Shown: in pieces, positions 1,814 to 9,344 of the stretch
How positions within the stretch are numbered: the first letter of the stretch is position 1
How the letters are laid out: each line of letters opens with the position of its first letter
NCBI RefSeq assembly: GCF_011299615.1
Contig: NZ_CP049861.1
Location: 1,860,001-1,924,000 of the forward strand
Source: Erysipelothrix sp. HDW6C
GTDB lineage: Bacteria; Bacillota_I; Bacilli_A; Erysipelotrichales; Erysipelotrichaceae
Direction of reading: 5' to 3'
DNA length: 64,000 nt
Notes under the pieces: model-generated
Databases searched by the model: none
Told to the model about the DNA's origin: nothing
Seen by the model: only the letters and a program-made list of their open reading frames with translations
Program-made: the position numbers and the translations under genes

Positions 1814-1847
1814 ACAAAAAAACTGCCAATCGATCTGATTAGCAGTT
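1814..1847 (-). terminator. Terminator of the Yhf operon
   Basis: Bases 1821-1847 form a hairpin with AACTGC/GCAGTT and inner AATC/GATT arms, joined by a G-T wobble on the minus strand. It is followed on that strand by a run of T (1815-1820). It sits 26 bases past the yhfW stop. Confidence 0.8.
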
Positions 1848-1872: not shown

Positions 1873-3087
1873 TTATTTCATTATCTTATCAAGAAATGAT
1901 GTACCGTGTTCAATTTTAGTACCAAAATAATCTGCAACAGTTTGACCAACATCTGCCATTGTATCGCGTTCACCAATATCAATAAGGCCCTTATGCTGTG
2001 TCTGTTTGATCAAAAGCGGTACTCTTTCGCGGGTATGACGCGTGTGTCCAATGGTCGGATCATTACCATGATCTGCCATCACTACAAGAAAATCTTGAGG
2101 ATTTAAACAATTAATGAGTTGTGCAAGCTTTCGATCCGAAACATTCAGACGATCAATATAGCGCTCTGCATCTTCAGCGTGGCCTGCAAGATCGGTTTCT
2201 TGAATGTTTAGAAAAAAGAATCCTGTTGTGTAGTCCTTCATATCCTGAAGCAGTGCATCAAAAGTATCTTCCGTGTCCACACACGCAAAACTTGTGCCCT
2301 TTGGATTGTAGATGATATTTTCAACTTTACCATAAAAATGATTTTCTACACCGATGTTTGCCAATGCAATTGGGACTTGCTTACTGGTATCAACACCATA
2401 GCCAATATGAATGACATGATAATTCTGATCGTAAACACCCGATCCCGGTGCATCAATGCCAATAAAATCACCGCTAACAACAATATTATCAAGAATCCGT
2501 TCTATGGTAACACCCGACCCGCCAAATGCGATGACGCGGGGCACATGAACATGTTTCCGCACGATTTGTCCGACTTGATCAATTAAATCGAATCCACAGT
2601 AATCCAAAGCACCGACAACATTGATTGCTTGCCCCAAATCAGTTTCCATGTTGTCGCCAATACAAATAACATCATTAACTTTTAGAAGCGACAGTCCACC
2701 ACGACTTACACGTTCAACTGTGAATCCTTGTGAGAGCAAATCCGCTTCAATATCGTCAAGGTGCCGTTGAATTTGAGTGAATAACGGTTTCTTTGGATCG
2801 GTTCCGGCAATCTCCTGATGTCCAAAATAGGAATCTGCGCCAAAGTGTTTCAAATTACTCTTACCGAAGATGGCATTCTTACTTTTTGGAAAACCAGGAA
2901 CATCTTTATTGAGTGCATTTATCAATCCCAAGTCAATCAGAGTTGGCCACTGTTTCGCAGCTGGATATTCTAACAAATGGAGACAGGTATTAGACCCGAT
3001 ATCAGCTGGACGCACTTCGGGTACATCTGCCATTGCTCCAATACCAAAACTATCAAGCACAATCACAATAAATCTTCCTTTATTCAT
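1873..3087 (-). CDS. yhfW: YhfW-like phosphopentomutase-family metalloenzyme
   Basis: This 404-residue protein belongs to the alkaline phosphatase/phosphopentomutase superfamily of two-metal enzymes. The N-terminal metal site is in LDSFGIGAM (D12), and the C-terminal metal ligands are in ADHGND and GHTRH (about D339, H340, H348, H351). The active-site segment of DeoB (KDTxTGH) reads ADSYFGH here (85-90), so a Ser stands near the position of the usual phospho-Thr. Position in the operon next to YhfX, Php and YhfS identifies it as YhfW rather than DeoB; its substrate is not known. I chose ATG 3087 because it matches the family N-terminus and overlaps the yhfX stop; ATG 3108, behind an AGGAG only 3 bases away, is the alternative. 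Confidence 0.8.
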   Translation of the reverse strand: MNKGRFIVIVLDSFGIGAMADVPEVRPADIGSNTCLHLLEYPAAKQWPTLIDLGLINALNKDVPGFPKSKNAIFGKSNLKHFGADSYFGHQEIAGTDPKKPLFTQIQRHLDDIEADLLSQGFTVERVSRGGLSLLKVNDVICIGDNMETDLGQAINVVGALDYCGFDLIDQVGQIVRKHVHVPRVIAFGGSGVTIERILDNIVVSGDFIGIDAPGSGVYDQNYHVIHIGYGVDTSKQVPIALANIGVENHFYGKVENIIYNPKGTSFACVDTEDTFDALLQDMKDYTTGFFFLNIQETDLAGHAEDAERYIDRLNVSDRKLAQLINCLNPQDFLVVMADHGNDPTIGHTRHTRERVPLLIKQTQHKGLIDIGERDTMADVGQTVADYFGTKIEHGTSFLDKIMK

Positions 3088-4234
3088 AGACTTTACCAAT
3101 TCCGTCATAGACTCCTAGAAGTTGAGGGTTGTGTGACTGGATCCCTTCGATGAGAACAACCTTACTTCTCGTAACAAACATTTGAAAACGGAAAGCCATG
3201 ATTACTGTTGCACTGACCGGTTGTTCGTGATCAAGTTCAAAATAGTAATCAATGCTATCATCATTCACGGGAATGACACCATCTCTTGTTTCCAAGGTTC
3301 CATCATTAATCAGAGCATGCTTGACGTGGGAGCGACGATAGTGTCCACCACCATACGCATACGACTTACCACGGAAATTATGAGATACCTCACTGAGATA
3401 GATAACAGCAGGCAATTCTTCCAAATCATGATACGCATGCGCTGGTGTGGTACCGGTAAGTCCATGTCCTGGTTCCCCCATGTTTCCTTCCCCTTCCGCC
3501 ATCACGCGAATGGTTGAGACGCAGGTTGTTGAGGGCACATTGATTTGCGTCACCTCAAGCCCTCGTTTACGCATCATTCCAACCGCTTCAATAACGGTTG
3601 TATAGTTGGGTGTCTTCTCAACACGACCCGTATTCGCATCATACAAATAGCACGGGAAGGCAGTTGCACCAACAATGCGTACATGCGATAGTTGGGCAAC
3701 CTGGTCCATGAACTCATCAAGACGCGTCAAATCGATTCCAGACATCTGGCCACTGTAATACAAATCACTCGCATCGGATACTTTTACAATAATGTCTTGT
3801 ACCTTGCCAAGTTCTTGTGCGGCTTCATGAATTTCCAAAACTTTATCAAAGGAGAACACTGTGAAAACTTCGACACCATAGTCTATAACGCGTTTGAGTC
3901 CACGCTTGGGTGGTTGAACAAGGTGTCCAACGTTCCCAAGGGGTATATTATGGTTCATCATAATCTCTGCTTCTCTGAAATCAACAACAACAGCGCCACG
4001 ATATCCCATTGCTACGAGTTCCTTCGCAATCAAAGGGTTACGTCCGAGTTGCTTGAGCATGAAGTAAACATCCATATTATTGGCATGCGCCGCTTCAAGG
4101 ATTTGTTTTGCATTGACACGTAAAACATCCATATCGATAACATAACTATCGGGTTCCAATATTCCTTTTTGGTGTAAGTCAATCGTGACATCAATCAGAG
4201 CACGATTGCGACGGTTAACAGTATCTAAGAACAC
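3080..4234 (-). CDS. yhfX: YhfX-like PLP enzyme (alanine racemase fold)
   Basis: This 384-residue protein is a fold-type III PLP enzyme, the alanine racemase/D-amino acid lyase class. The expected PLP lysine is K61 in YFMLKQLGR, close to the start of the barrel as in the family. The C-terminal half contains GEPGHGLTG and SYAYGGGHY, typical of YhfX relatives. It lies fifth to sixth in a tightly spaced operon with YhfS, another PLP enzyme, and overlaps the following yhfW start by 8 bases, which suggests translational coupling. The reaction is unknown; an amino acid or amino-sugar derived substrate is an inference from the two PLP enzymes. Confidence 0.82.
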   Translation of the reverse strand: MFLDTVNRRNRALIDVTIDLHQKGILEPDSYVIDMDVLRVNAKQILEAAHANNMDVYFMLKQLGRNPLIAKELVAMGYRGAVVVDFREAEIMMNHNIPLGNVGHLVQPPKRGLKRVIDYGVEVFTVFSFDKVLEIHEAAQELGKVQDIIVKVSDASDLYYSGQMSGIDLTRLDEFMDQVAQLSHVRIVGATAFPCYLYDANTGRVEKTPNYTTVIEAVGMMRKRGLEVTQINVPSTTCVSTIRVMAEGEGNMGEPGHGLTGTTPAHAYHDLEELPAVIYLSEVSHNFRGKSYAYGGGHYRRSHVKHALINDGTLETRDGVIPVNDDSIDYYFELDHEQPVSATVIMAFRFQMFVTRSKVVLIEGIQSHNPQLLGVYDGIGKVYE

Positions 4235-5328
4235 GATATCACCTGCTCAAGTGCTTCCTTAATGATACGAATAACAGTATCGGCACCACTACGCATCGGA
4301 TTAATACGGACCCAATATTCCGAAAACGCTGGATCAGATGCTAGCATCGTTCCTGATACACGATAAATCATCGGCACGACTTCATATTTACTTTCCGCAC
4401 CAACAGGGTATGCAGCAGCACCATGTTGTGCTGTTGCTTCGAGAATTTGCTTTGCAATTGGTTCGCTAAATTTAACCAGTACAACTTTTGATTGGGCATT
4501 CACAACCACGGCTTCTTCAACACCTGTAATTTCACCCGCATTGAGACGTTGGGCAATCTTGTTAATTTCTTGCGCTTGAACAGCAAGCGCAACAGGAGCA
4601 TACACCAATGAGCGCATGGCTTCCATCGCTTCAAACCCTTGTGTTTGTGTTCCGCCTGAATAGTGAAACTTCCGAATGCTCGCAATGTTTTCACGATTTC
4701 CAACAACACATCCAATGCCTTCTGGACCTAACAATTTAAACATCGAGAAACAGGACATATCAGCACCCAATTGAGATCCAATTTGCGCCACTTTCATAAC
4801 GGCGTAATTATCATCAGTTACGATGGTAACTGCGCGTATACCCTTAATGCAGGCAATAACTTCATCCATATCATAACTATCTTCCAAACTTTGTCGTGTG
4901 TATTGAATGAGTGCAGTTTGAATATCTGCATGTTCTTGAAGCGTTTGTTTTATGGATTCAAGATTATTAAAATCACAACTCACAGCTTCCAAACCTAAAT
5001 GTTCAAAAGTAGTGATGGTTGTTGAATAGATTGGCGATGTGTGGACCAAGACTTTATCGCCTGACTTTGTACAGCTTGCCAAGCCTTCACGAATTGCTGA
5101 AGTTCCCGCACCGCGAACAAAACAAGCATCTTCCGCATCAAAGAGATCAGCAAGTACACGCTCGACCTTACGTGTTGTTTGCGGCTGATTTCCAGCCGGG
5201 TGTACACCCAAATCCCCATTTGTAAGAATCTCATAGCCATCAAATTCACGCGTGATTGCATCAACAAGTTTGAATTGCATCGCAATCGCCTGGTCTATTG
5301 TAAGGCTTGGTAATGGGTGTGCTTTCAT
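4225..5328 (-). CDS. yhfS: YhfS-like PLP-dependent aminotransferase-fold enzyme
   Basis: This 367-residue fold-type I PLP enzyme is of the YhfS group. GAGTSAIR (73-80) is the phosphate-binding stretch, D172/D173 lie where the pyridine-nitrogen aspartate is expected, and K198 in SMFKLLGPEG is the Schiff-base lysine. It overlaps yhfX by 10 bases and starts 4 bases inside the end of php, so the three are likely translated together. YhfS relatives are usually annotated as uncharacterised aminotransferases, and beta-elimination or lyase chemistry is equally possible from sequence alone. Confidence 0.82.
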   Translation of the reverse strand: MKAHPLPSLTIDQAIAMQFKLVDAITREFDGYEILTNGDLGVHPAGNQPQTTRKVERVLADLFDAEDACFVRGAGTSAIREGLASCTKSGDKVLVHTSPIYSTTITTFEHLGLEAVSCDFNNLESIKQTLQEHADIQTALIQYTRQSLEDSYDMDEVIACIKGIRAVTIVTDDNYAVMKVAQIGSQLGADMSCFSMFKLLGPEGIGCVVGNRENIASIRKFHYSGGTQTQGFEAMEAMRSLVYAPVALAVQAQEINKIAQRLNAGEITGVEEAVVVNAQSKVVLVKFSEPIAKQILEATAQHGAAAYPVGAESKYEVVPMIYRVSGTMLASDPAFSEYWVRINPMRSGADTVIRIIKEALEQVISCS

Positions 5329-6215
5329 CGAATTTCACCTCCGAAAATACGTTGCGGGTTATCATTAATCATCATTTGAATGGATGCCTCGGTGATGCCT
5401 TCTTCACGCAACATGGGAAGGAAATCTGTGAAAAGATAGGAGTATCCAATACCACCTTGATACTTGAAATTTGACTTACGAGTAATATCCAGTGCCAAAG
5501 TAATGTGATCGAGTTTTCCTTCATCTTGAAGTTGTTTTAAATAAACCGCACGTTCGCGATCTGGAAAGTAGTTGTTTTTGCCAATAGTATCAAATGCCAC
5601 ATTAAACCCCATATCAATCAATGTACGAATTTGATCGAGATTCCCCGATAAATCTTGATGACCAATAATTACTTTACGTGGATCAATACCATGTTCTACA
5701 AAGAATGCAGCTTGCTCTAAAGCAAGGGTTCCTAAGGATGTATGGGTTGAAATAATTGCACCCGTTTCTTTTGCAGCAAGAACTGCAGCCTCAAATACTT
5801 TACGTTCCATTGGTTCCATAACATCAACACTTGTACCAATTTCTCCAATAACTTGCGCCTTTGTATCCGTTCCATCAATACCGTTACGAATTTCATTCAC
5901 CATGTGTTGCGCAAGCTCTTCAATACTTTGTTCATAAACAAATGCTGGTAAAAATGGTTCCTTATAGAATCCTGTTGCTTGTACAATGTTGATGCCTGTT
6001 AGATCAGCAACACTATTTACATAGTCAACATTGCGGCCCATCCCCATAGCTGTAACATCAACGATGTTACGAACACCCAGGTCATACAAATCACGATATT
6101 CTTGAACTGTTTCATCAAAACAGTCTAAGAAACAATCAGGATTGTTTTTTACTTTCGACAAATCAATGGTTGTATGTTCATGAATTAATGTTAATCCCTC
6201 TTTTAATAGTGCCAT
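5325..6215 (-). CDS. php: Php phosphotriesterase-homology protein
   Basis: This 296-residue TIM-barrel metalloenzyme belongs to the phosphotriesterase family. All metal ligands are visible: H12 and H14 in LIHEH, E125 in VIGEIGTS, H158 in STHTS, H186 in IGHQD and D243 in LALDIT. The bridging residue is Glu, as in Php-type members, instead of the carboxylated Lys of true phosphotriesterases. A GGAGG ribosome binding site 5 bases ahead supports ATG 6215 over the upstream in-frame ATG. Family members often act as lactonases or hydrolases of small phosphorylated or lactone compounds; the natural substrate of Php is not established, and none can be read here. Confidence 0.88.
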   Translation of the reverse strand: MALLKEGLTLIHEHTTIDLSKVKNNPDCFLDCFDETVQEYRDLYDLGVRNIVDVTAMGMGRNVDYVNSVADLTGINIVQATGFYKEPFLPAFVYEQSIEELAQHMVNEIRNGIDGTDTKAQVIGEIGTSVDVMEPMERKVFEAAVLAAKETGAIISTHTSLGTLALEQAAFFVEHGIDPRKVIIGHQDLSGNLDQIRTLIDMGFNVAFDTIGKNNYFPDRERAVYLKQLQDEGKLDHITLALDITRKSNFKYQGGIGYSYLFTDFLPMLREEGITEASIQMMINDNPQRIFGGEIR

Positions 6216-6229
6216 TCTTACCTCCATAA

Positions 6230-7246
6230 TCAGTATTTTTCAACTGAAAAATAACGTTCTTCTAATGCTGAGCGTTCAAATTGGATCCTTTTAGCCATTT
6301 CAAACATGGTTTGAATATGAGCTTCCTCCGATTTGCAAATCATCAGTATCCCCACACTTAAATCCTGAGTAGGAATGATTAATGCGCTCAACCCTAACAT
6401 ATTTACAACTGTTAGATAATACTTATATCCTTGCATTTGGTATTCTTTCATTGCTTCTGAATAGTGACCCATGAGCGAATCACCATATTCAAACAAATCA
6501 ACCGGTCCCTCAAAACATACTAATATTTCCGCATCAAAATTAACGGCGTCCAAATCATTCATCAACGCTTGACGGGATGACGCATCGTAAGTAAGTTCTA
6601 TGCGTTCAGCCTTTGGAAATGTGGAAACGACTGTTTCAAATGCCGCCGTATGAAATACATTCTTTGACTCAGCAATACGCATGGTGAGTGATTTTGAATG
6701 AACAAGCGGCAAACTCAGAGCAACAATATTTTGGATTGGTGCCAGTGTTTTTGAAATGAATCCTATTGAGGGTTGAAACGTAATATTGTCTGTTGATTTC
6801 TTTGAATACTGTGACAATGCTTCATTACAGATGCGTGGCGATATAAATCCAAAAAGATTCAATGCAATTGCCGGTCCCAAAACAGAGCCACCGCCATCGG
6901 TTCCAATACCAATATCGTTAATACCTTTAAATACATTTATTGCTGTCCCACTGGATGATCCAGTCATGAGTCTTCCTGTGATGGGGTTGTGCAAACAATG
7001 GTCAATCGCACGACCACGTTCTGACATCGCATCGCGTGTATGCATGAGGTATCCTGCTTTTTCCAACGTCTTTAAATATTCAAAAGGAATTACGTTGGTG
7101 TTTTTAACACCAACGTAATAAACTTCTTCACCTTTTTCAAGGCGGTCGGCACATTCCCGGATAATATTTGGGTATGCTTCCACAACAGAAGGTTGATTGA
7201 ATGTATTGAAAGATTTAATTGCGAAATTTGCTATTTTATGTGTCAT
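6230..7246 (-). CDS. Amidase-signature family protein in the Yhf operon
   Basis: This 338-residue protein carries the amidase signature. Lys in VGVKNT (K48), Ser in TGSSSGTA (S97/S98) and the nucleophile Ser in GTDGGGS (S121) together make up the Ser-cisSer-Lys triad. It is clearly shorter than the usual 450-500 residues: the helical N-terminal part and parts of the C-terminal substrate region are reduced. It lies between yhfT and php with spacings of 3 and 14 bases, so it is a full member of the operon. The E. coli yhf operon, as I know it, has no such gene. An amide-hydrolysing step in the pathway is an inference; activity could be altered by the truncation. Confidence 0.8.
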   Translation of the reverse strand: MTHKIANFAIKSFNTFNQPSVVEAYPNIIRECADRLEKGEEVYYVGVKNTNVIPFEYLKTLEKAGYLMHTRDAMSERGRAIDHCLHNPITGRLMTGSSSGTAINVFKGINDIGIGTDGGGSVLGPAIALNLFGFISPRICNEALSQYSKKSTDNITFQPSIGFISKTLAPIQNIVALSLPLVHSKSLTMRIAESKNVFHTAAFETVVSTFPKAERIELTYDASSRQALMNDLDAVNFDAEILVCFEGPVDLFEYGDSLMGHYSEAMKEYQMQGYKYYLTVVNMLGLSALIIPTQDLSVGILMICKSEEAHIQTMFEMAKRIQFERSALEERYFSVEKY

Positions 7247-7249
7247 TGG

Positions 7250-8539
7250 TTAAACGGGTAGAACCCAAAGTCCCATGACCAACAGAATATTAAGAAGAAT
7301 ACCAAATGCAATCGCTGCAACAGGACCAACAGCAAGATCAACAATAGGTTTCTTAGATTGCTTGTTCAGTAAGTAGAAGCCAATAACAAAGAGACTACCT
7401 ATGCCATTTGCCATTGTATTTGCGGCAGTAACACCACCGACTAACAATGCTACTTCTAGAACTTTACTCATCGATGTACGGATGTGTTCTCCCATTTCAC
7501 GAACACCTGGGAATTTATCCATACCTTTTGCAAATGCATTGATTAAAAATACTTCGATAACCATGACGACAGCACCAACAACGAATGCAAATAATGGGTT
7601 ACCATGAAGCAAGATACCAATTGCAAAGACAAATGTTGCACCCGCAGGTCCATAAACACCGGTTACAATCGCCGTAGTAAATACGAGTGGAATAAATCCA
7701 ATTGCGCGCGCAAATGCAGCCATTGCAGCACTCGCGAATTGACCTTCTGCAAGCAATGCAAGTGATGTTGGGTCACCAGCAATAATAAGAAGACTTGTTC
7801 CCGCAGCAATTAAACCACCCATCAATCCAAGGACCCACCAGTTTTTTTGGATACGTGATACTTGAGTTGAGAATACGTTTGTTAAATCTTGATTGTTTGT
7901 TTTTGCATCTGTCTTTGTACGTGTTGCAAAAAATAACATCATGACCGTTCCAAACAACATTGCAATACCTTCGGCATTGAGTGCTACTGTTGCCTCTCCG
8001 ATTGCGAATGTACCAAAACGTTTGACAACAAACCAAATTAGAACTGAAACTGCACCTGTAATTGCACCCTTTTTGAAGCCGTGTTGCATTGCAACAGCAA
8101 CAGCAGGGAAGATTGCGAACGCTGCAGTAACTGGAGCACTTACGCCTCCCAAGGCACTTAAGAAGTCAAATGGTAATTTGCTAAAGAGATCTACAATTAC
8201 TTGTAGTCCACCTAAGATAGCTGCCCCATAAAGTGCACCGGCAACTCCAGCAAAAATCATTCCCTTCATATCATCTTTAAATACTGTACCAATGATATCG
8301 GTAGCAAGTAAGATGGAGTGAATCAAGATAATTGAAGCAGCGATTGATGTTGGAATACCAAATCCAACAACCAAACCAAAGCTAATTGCAAAACTTGTTG
8401 CTGCTAATTCTTTACGACTGATTTTCCCATCAAAATATTGTGGTACGAGTGGTCTAAAACCATCGTTGAATACGGCAATCCCCTTGTTGGCTAAGATTGA
8501 TGCCAATGCACCAATAGCCATGATAATAATGAATTCCAT
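7250..8539 (-). CDS. yhfT: YhfT-like membrane transporter
   Basis: This 429-residue, very hydrophobic protein has about 10-12 predicted membrane helices and glycine-rich loops such as GFGIPTSIAAS and GVYGPAGATFVF. It corresponds in place, size and character to YhfT, a putative permease always found beside YhfU. It lies between yhfU (14 bases upstream) and the amidase gene (3 bases downstream). It is the only integral membrane protein of the operon and therefore the likely uptake system for the pathway substrate, which is an inference from context. Confidence 0.8.
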   Translation of the reverse strand: MEFIIIMAIGALASILANKGIAVFNDGFRPLVPQYFDGKISRKELAATSFAISFGLVVGFGIPTSIAASIILIHSILLATDIIGTVFKDDMKGMIFAGVAGALYGAAILGGLQVIVDLFSKLPFDFLSALGGVSAPVTAAFAIFPAVAVAMQHGFKKGAITGAVSVLIWFVVKRFGTFAIGEATVALNAEGIAMLFGTVMMLFFATRTKTDAKTNNQDLTNVFSTQVSRIQKNWWVLGLMGGLIAAGTSLLIIAGDPTSLALLAEGQFASAAMAAFARAIGFIPLVFTTAIVTGVYGPAGATFVFAIGILLHGNPLFAFVVGAVVMVIEVFLINAFAKGMDKFPGVREMGEHIRTSMSKVLEVALLVGGVTAANTMANGIGSLFVIGFYLLNKQSKKPIVDLAVGPVAAIAFGILLNILLVMGLWVLPV

Positions 8540-8553
8540 TATTTATTCTCCTT

Positions 8554-8913
8554 TTATTTAATGAATTCTCGAATCAAAATCGGTAAAACATGTTCAGCAT
8601 GTTGGGCTGTAAAACCAAACGCTTTCTTTCCCTTAGATACTTCATCCACCATGAATGACTCATCTTTAATGGATCCAGGCATTGACACAGTTGAACACAA
8701 ATCAGGACCAAGCATTGCCATCGCCATCGCTAATGCGCCTCCGCCACCGGTATTACAAGCACCAACGTAATAATCATACTCGCCAGCTTTCATCGCCATG
8801 GCTGCATCAAGATCACCTTTTACTTCAACCGATACATGATCACCGCCAAGTTTTTCAACAAGGGCAGCGATTGCTTGTTTATCGATTTGTCCACCTACTA
8901 CTATTTTTTTCAT
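8554..8913 (-). CDS. yhfU: YhfU-like DUF2620 protein
   Basis: This 119-residue protein matches the DUF2620 (YhfU) family: it starts MKKIVVGGQ and has a glycine-rich ACNTGGGGALAMAMAMLGP segment followed by a conserved-looking SMPGSIKDE. It is soluble, with no signal peptide. The small Rossmann-like character and the pairing with YhfT recall cytosolic components of transporters, but no biochemical role is known. It starts 1 base after the PRD gene ends. Confidence 0.82.
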   Translation of the reverse strand: MKKIVVGGQIDKQAIAALVEKLGGDHVSVEVKGDLDAAMAMKAGEYDYYVGACNTGGGGALAMAMAMLGPDLCSTVSMPGSIKDESFMVDEVSKGKKAFGFTAQHAEHVLPILIREFIK

Positions 8914-8914
8914 T

Positions 8915-9271
8915 CTAGTTGTCTCCTCCGTTCTCTCTTAAGACATTACTTAGATGTAACCAAATGAATTGCATTTCACTGTCTGGAAATTCAACAACAC
9001 CGTCCGTGAGGATTTCAGTTGTTAAAACCTGTACACGCTCAAAGTCTGCAAACATTTTGATTTCATCTAAAATGAAATCATCCATTGCGTTGACAACGTC
9101 GTCATTGCGAATGCGTTGTGTTGCCATTGCAAGGTGTGTCAATAGCACTTCCGCAGCAGAACTATCCAAGCCTTCTCGCTTGATAATTCCTTCATATACG
9201 TTGAGACAATAGTCATGGACATCTTGGTCAATGATGTTGTTCTCACGTAAAACTTTCAATCGTTCTTCCAA
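8915..9271 (-). CDS. yhfY: Single PRD-domain protein (YhfY-like)
   Basis: This 118-residue protein is essentially one PRD domain. The first conserved His is in LLTHLAMAT (about H46) and the second in IWLHLSNVL (about H106). In other proteins these histidines are phosphorylated by HPr or EIIB and tune a regulator. No DNA-binding or EII domain is attached, as in YhfY. The start is TTG 9271 with AGGAGG 6 bases upstream. It is first in the operon, just behind the palindromic operator. It could sense the PTS state for the whole operon, but the partner is not visible in the window. Confidence 0.78.
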   Translation of the reverse strand: MEERLKVLRENNIIDQDVHDYCLNVYEGIIKREGLDSSAAEVLLTHLAMATQRIRNDDVVNAMDDFILDEIKMFADFERVQVLTTEILTDGVVEFPDSEMQFIWLHLSNVLRENGGDN

Positions 9272-9282
9272 TTCAACCTCCT

Positions 9283-9302
9283 ATATACAATATATTGTAT
9301 AT
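9283..9302. promoter_or_regulatory. Perfect 20-bp palindromic operator of the Yhf operon
   Basis: ATATACAATATATTGTATAT is a perfect 20-bp palindrome. It starts about 7 bases after the expected transcription start and ends just before the AGGAGG of the first gene. Length, position and TATACA half-sites suit a dimeric repressor of GntR/HutC type. No such regulator is encoded next to the operon. Confidence 0.7.
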
Positions 9303-9315
9303 TAAATACAAACTT

Positions 9316-9344
9316 ATTATAGCCCTCGTTTCGCAACCTGTCAA
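9316..9344 (-). promoter_or_regulatory. Yhf operon promoter
   Basis: Perfect TTGACA (9339-9344) and TATAAT (9316-9321) with a 17-base spacer on the minus strand. A consensus promoter with a palindrome directly downstream indicates strong transcription that is normally repressed. Confidence 0.82.

Follow-up and report, generated by a model that had tools for sequence, protein, structure and literature searches.

The yhf operon of E. coli K-12 has had no assigned function despite the solved structures of YhfX, YhfS and Php, and in the literature searched we found neither a function for the operon, YhfX, YhfT, Php or DUF2620 nor a substrate or an activity for any Yhf enzyme. The window analysed here, a 64,000-nucleotide stretch of DNA from Erysipelothrix sp. 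HDW6C, contains a yhf operon with an amidase homologue (AMI), and we asked what this protein is and what it could tell about the pathway. The preliminary description of this DNA had placed the amidase homologue between yhfT and php in an operon with yhfY, yhfU, yhfT, php, yhfS, yhfX and yhfW; its open reading frame proved to be exact, and Pfam and NCBIfam searches confirmed the identities of the products, with YhfT, YhfU, YhfX, YhfS, YhfW, Php and a PRD protein all found in one unit (Table 1). The eight genes are arranged in the order Y-U-T-AMI-Php-S-X-W, with gaps of 2-3 bases between AMI and both yhfT and php. The unit is preceded by a consensus promoter and ends, beyond yhfW, in a terminator-like hairpin, which makes a single transcript of all eight genes very likely. 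The gene for YhfZ (399 bits) lies 12 kb from the operon in the same genome. In addition, a secreted surface protein of 2097 aa, whose C-terminus carries an LPSTG-type sorting signal, is encoded 3' of the operon on the same strand (L111:7025-13318, reaching window position ~1317).

Table 1. Features of the yhf operon in the window.
Feature	Coordinates	Strand	Remarks
YhfW, phosphopentomutase-like metalloenzyme	1873..3108	-	NCBIfam PRK12383
YhfX, alanine-racemase-like PLP enzyme	3080..4234	-	Pfam; relative solved as 4kbx (YhfX)
YhfS, PLP fold-type I enzyme	4225..5328	-	Pfam; relative solved as 4j8l (YhfS)
Php, phosphotriesterase (PTE)-family metal hydrolase	5325..6227	-	Pfam/NCBIfam
AMI, 338-aa amidase-signature protein	6230..7246	-	ATG start; catalytic K48-S97-S121
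YhfT, 429-aa polytopic membrane protein, putative transporter	7250..8539	-	PF10797, 540 bits
YhfU, DUF2620, invariant Cys53	8554..8913	-	Pfam
YhfY, single PRD domain (PTS regulation domain)	8915..9271	-	Pfam
Palindrome ATATACAATATATTGTATAT, candidate YhfZ operator	9283..9302		between -10 box and yhfY start
Promoter TTGACA-17-TATAAT	9316..9344	-	12/12 consensus bases
Terminator-like stem-loop with T run	1821..1847	-	after yhfW, transcript end

The AMI protein matched the amidase-signature (AS) family PF01425 at 31.1 bits against a cut-off of 27, over residues 87-134 only (Pfam), and scored far under the cut-off of each NCBIfam AS family that it matched, including the GatA equivalog TIGR00132 (32 versus 481.1 bits). 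The predicted model of AMI (AlphaFold2, pLDDT 95.3) was superimposed on GatA (2df4) with a Z score of 28.9 and an rmsd of 3.8 over 313 of the 338 residues (VIA-align), and all of the 50 fold matches listed were AS enzymes. As previously claimed from the sequence, the Ser-Ser-Lys triad is intact: K48, S97 and S121 are invariant in 56/56 aligned AMI sequences, which are 29-57% identical to the window protein. S97 and S121 align with the cis-Ser and the nucleophile of FAAH (S281/S305) and of GatA in profile alignments, while K48 was assigned as the AS lysine from its motif, VGxK(N/D)T, and from where it lies in the AS fold. Further invariant residues in the 56 sequences include G46, T70, D72, R79, R225, E246, D250 and K275; the charged ones that are specific to the family (R79, R225, E246, D250 and K275) would fit a polar or charged substrate. 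The shortened scaffold that had been noted was also found, AMI being 338 aa in length compared to 446 aa for the GatA-like AS amidase encoded elsewhere in the same genome, a difference of ~100 residues; the latter, full-length protein adjoins a gatB-like ORF. By our reading of the alignment, ~26 residues are gone in AMI between the Lys and the helix preceding the Ser motif, and hhalign of AMI with the genome's own GatA aligned the signature region alone. No signal peptide was seen in the N-terminal sequence of AMI, and the protein is probably cytosolic.

AMI thus shares with the PF01425 superfamily (GatA, FAAH, malonamidase E2, allophanate hydrolase) the fold, the GSSSG...TDGGGSV stretch and the Ser-cisSer-Lys triad, but differs from its members of 410-480 aa or more in its length of ~330 aa, in lacking the loop after the catalytic Lys, in an invariant set of its own (R225, EGPxD and K275) and in its occurrence in yhf clusters only. 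Judged by these sequence features, AMI forms an AS subfamily of its own, linked to an operon that has no assigned function. We found no description of the subfamily in the literature searched, and a copy on a Cetobacterium plasmid is annotated merely as 'amidase family protein'. Amide hydrolysis would be the chemistry expected of the conserved active site. Because the closest folds of AMI are GatA proteins, we also considered that AMI, as GatA, may be an ammonia-producing, glutaminase-like subunit feeding an amination in the pathway; however, the similarity to GatA is limited to the signature stretch, with the low equivalog score given above, and no GatB/GatC-like partner was recognised in yhf clusters, which makes this role improbable.

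In order to examine how AMI is distributed, 392 genomes drawn from the phylum of the window were sampled. YhfT was encoded in 12 of these genomes and AMI in 10, all of them within the 12 (Fisher p = 3e-18). The weakest true AMI scored 463 bits, compared to 28 bits for the next AS protein. Among the best 80 loci of a scan of named-species genomes (some loci share one genome), 74/74 true AMI relatives adjoin yhf genes, and the other six loci encode ordinary proteobacterial amidases. These relatives span Bacillota, Fusobacteriota, Spirochaetota and Actinobacteria, with hosts that include Erysipelothrix, Enterococcus, Lacrimispora, Clostridium, Alkalibacterium, Virgibacillus, Brachyspira, Sebaldella and a Coriobacteriia bin, in addition to the Cetobacterium plasmid copy. 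AMI was found in at least a dozen arrangements, among them T-AMI-Php (25 loci), X-AMI-S (12), W-AMI (9), divergent from yhfU (7), Php-AMI-S (6) and as the first gene. In [Clostridium] citroniae, YhfT and AMI form one uninterrupted open frame of 768 aa (L031:8696-11002), representing either a natural fusion or the loss of a stop codon. The proposal that the amidase might lie near yhf genes by chance or hitch-hiking, without a role in the pathway, could draw on the ~40% of sampled clusters, that of E. coli included, which lack it, but it is contradicted by the 74/74 linkage, the Fisher test, the many independent gene orders and the operator-like palindrome described below, and we regard it as very nearly dismissed. 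The placement is therefore not random, the check that had been suggested for it. Based on its conserved triad and this linkage, AMI is almost certainly an active AS enzyme of the yhf pathway.

The 14-base core of the palindrome in Table 1 occurs once in the Erysipelothrix sp. HDW6C genome, at the operon promoter. Of 105 clusters, 47 have the core, with up to two mismatches, in a promoter or between genes, a number reached by 0.2% of 310-bp shuffles, in a count for which some loci were fetched twice and some of the gaps searched exceeded 310 bp. In loci in which AMI is the first gene of its own unit, the palindrome lies directly upstream of it, with one mismatch in L076, L089 and L091 and two in L096, and in Alkalibacterium, Marinilactibacillus and Jeotgalibaca a related palindrome with three mismatches is present in the divergent gap between yhfU and AMI. 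Searched genome-wide, an 18-base form occurs once, at the yhf locus, in five genomes (G000, G1135, G1209, G1225 and G960); it also occurs once in G141 and G394, where the reversed control pattern likewise occurs once, and there are one to two further sites in G024, G049 and G398. The GntR-type protein YhfZ is probably the regulator that acts on this palindrome, and the two constitute a candidate regulator-operator pair for inducer screening. In one group of Erysipelotrichaceae, a small zinc-ribbon/membrane protein (~130-150 aa) is encoded between yhfZ and yhfY (L055, L057, L060, L068, L071, L080 and L081).

The preliminary description had regarded the amidase as an extra gene relative to E. 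coli. In agreement with this, AMI is absent from the yhfSTU-php-WXYZ operon of E. coli K-12, and PF01425 had no match anywhere in E. coli; AMI is also absent from a Vibrio plasmid cluster. The E. coli operon shares S, T, U, Php, W, X, Y, Z and the type of regulator with the AMI-bearing clusters, whereas both the E. coli and the Vibrio cluster differ from them in gene order as well as in the lack of AMI, and the Vibrio cluster also lacks YhfS in the stretch read. The gene is, however, no peculiarity of the window operon, since AMI was found in 29 of 48 YhfT-bearing genomes across several phyla when four samples were pooled (~60%, a figure that is slightly high because three centre genomes were chosen for having AMI). 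YhfT was encoded in 7 of 230 genomes of Lachnospiraceae (AMI in 5 of these), in 13 of 105 of Enterococcaceae (AMI in 6) and in 16 of 98 of Fusobacteriota (AMI in 8), the names of the three groups being taken from the named loci whose genomes served as centres. In G142 (L020) no AMI was seen on a contig that ends inside yhfW. The gammaproteobacterial sample contained no YhfT (0/274), so that clusters of the E. coli type are represented by E. coli K-12 and the Vibrio plasmid only. We found no unlinked copy of AMI in 18 genomes with an AMI-less yhf cluster, and no family member apart from yhf genes in the sampled genomes as a whole, which answers the concern that the amidase might occur elsewhere without relation to them. 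In a midpoint-rooted tree of X+W+S, in which the placement of E. coli and Vibrio has low support, the AMI-less clusters form six patches, of which most are nested within AMI-bearing groups (6 changes compared to at least 14 in shuffles). Repeated loss of AMI is the likeliest history suggested by this tree, and since AMI-less clusters are scattered among AMI-bearing ones, E. coli is probably one of several losses.

We examined the genes that recur beside yhf clusters as clues to the substrate. The commonest families that adjoin the clusters in the same direction were PF00144 (9 members) and PF01182 (8). The PF01182 genes encode NagB (glucosamine-6-phosphate deaminase), with TIGR00502 scores of 248-307 bits against a cut-off of 236.9 in five of the five loci tested. 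NagB follows yhfW by 2-106 bp on the same strand in L032, L038, L043, L064, L065, L066 and L069; in L087 it lies at another place in the flank, and in L133 it precedes yhfZ. It was found with clusters of at least six lineages against an expectation of 0.04, with the background assumed at 1.5 such genes per 2500. The PF00144 genes matched that family and encode secreted beta-lactamase-family hydrolases, with signal or lipoprotein N-termini by our reading, whose best NCBIfam match is PBP4B/YfeW PRK03642 (236-309 bits, under the cut-off of 385). Such a YfeW/PBP4B-like hydrolase was found at nine AMI loci and also in five Fusobacteriota clusters that lack AMI, where php and yhfS flank its gene within the operon. 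NagB and the YfeW-like gene each adjoin a minority of clusters; neither adjoins the yhf cluster of the window, and this genome's own NagB (231.6 bits, just under the cut-off) lies 0.7 Mb away. HPr genes adjoin three clusters and a gene for PTS enzyme I one (L094 only). A PTS EIIBC gene and a YhcH/YjgK/YiaL (DUF386) gene lie directly upstream of yhfZ in Fusobacteriota (L142:11762-13833, with similar genes in L143 and L145), and the Vibrio cluster is preceded by DUF7916 and, by our reading of the sequences, PTS-like genes. The gene after HPr in L080 was tried as a further PTS enzyme I and rejected, as it encodes a phosphoglucomutase-family protein. Taken together, the NagB, YfeW-like and PTS-related neighbours point to amino-sugar chemistry, and we put the chance that the yhf substrate is derived from an amino sugar at about even.

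What AMI would do in such a pathway can be read in two ways. First, AMI may free the amine of an N-substituted glucosamine (phosphate) for NagB by removing its acyl or aminoacyl group, with the housekeeping NagA standing in for AMI in E. coli and others. NagB, which abuts the cluster, requires a free amine, and it was found beside AMI-bearing clusters only (0/19 AMI-less clusters), with no NagA-type gene among the recurrent neighbours listed; but the co-occurrence of NagB and AMI is too sparse for a test, Php, YhfS and YhfX would need another target or an earlier action, and we know of no AS enzyme that deacetylates GlcNAc-6-P. That AMI itself is the N-deacylase of this amino sugar is therefore a tentative proposal. 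Second, and with similar reserve, AMI may act ahead of the racemase-like YhfX and YhfS on an imported conjugate, either muropeptide-like or of an amino acid, in which it would cut an amino-acid amide or a peptide bond. This would be consistent with the alanine-racemase-like nature of YhfX, with the AMI-specific invariant R/E/D/K set, which could hold a zwitterion, and with the recurrence of the secreted hydrolases, even though these remain under the PBP4B cut-off. E. coli yfeW (PBP4B) sits with murQ-murP (PMC5061867). Part of the yhf clusters resembles such MurNAc recycling clusters (murQ-murP-yfeW; murQRP-amiE-nagZ of B. subtilis) in having a secreted YfeW-like hydrolase and amino-sugar-phosphate enzymes beside a transporter, but yhf clusters differ in their PLP enzymes, PTE and mutase, and no MurQ, MurP or NagZ was noted among their recurrent neighbours.

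The amidase had been proposed as a clue to substrate, with its action on an amide or N-acyl bond placed ahead of the PLP and Php steps. With NagB and the YfeW-like proteins as recurrent partners, the N-acyl part of this proposal is strengthened, but the sequence of steps is not, since the gene order varies in a dozen ways and no order of reactions can be read from it; the amide could be opened at any stage of the pathway. As the whole explanation, we lean slightly towards a cytosolic AMI dedicated to a yhf catabolic pathway with an amino-sugar endpoint. AMI would be a compact Ser-cisSer-Lys amidohydrolase serving this pathway only and induced with it, through binding of the GntR-type YhfZ to the promoter palindrome. 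The substrate would be imported via YhfT with YhfU, in some species once a YfeW/PBP4B-like hydrolase has trimmed it extracellularly, as the recurrence of this gene in other species suggests. Inside the cell, AMI would cleave an amide or N-acyl bond, the remainder would be converted by Php, the PLP enzymes YhfS and YhfX, and the mutase YhfW, and the product or part of it would reach glucosamine-6-phosphate and NagB, an endpoint proposed because NagB abuts the cluster in several lineages. A more specific version, which we offer as speculative, is an undescribed catabolic route for an amino-sugar/amino-acid conjugate derived from cell wall or glycan, in which the miniature AS amidase provides the N-deacylating or amide-opening step beside two PLP enzymes and a mutase, which ends at glucosamine-6-phosphate, and which enterobacteria kept while losing the amidase. 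A yhf-only amidase family with a common operator-like palindrome and NagB for company suggests N-substituted glucosamine phosphates and muropeptide-like conjugates as candidate substrates, and AMI and its neighbours would provide a first chemical role that can be tested for the E. coli operon, which has long been unexplained.

With regard to import, YhfU Cys53, in the motif YxGxCxTGxGG, is invariant in 61/61 sequences, which would be consistent with a phospho-cysteine like that of EIIB or with some other role in catalysis or binding. A confident YhfT model (AlphaFold2, pLDDT 86.6) was compared with known folds, and its candidacy as a PTS EIIC found no support (Foldseek best E 0.19; VIA best Z 5.3 over 41 residues); YhfT had no Pfam PTS match, and its sequence profile gave nothing against the PDB. 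Since no known transporter or PTS EIIC was found to match YhfT in fold, import by a PTS is unsupported. Two further features of yhf loci were observed. A second, diverged pair of Php and YhfS (~200 and 420-455 bits) is encoded after yhfW in Erysipelotrichaceae (L055, L058, L059 and L063), and genes of the class I/II aminotransferase fold (PatB/MalY-like) recur near yhf clusters (L031:17938-19149, L139:12276-13421, L079 and L095).
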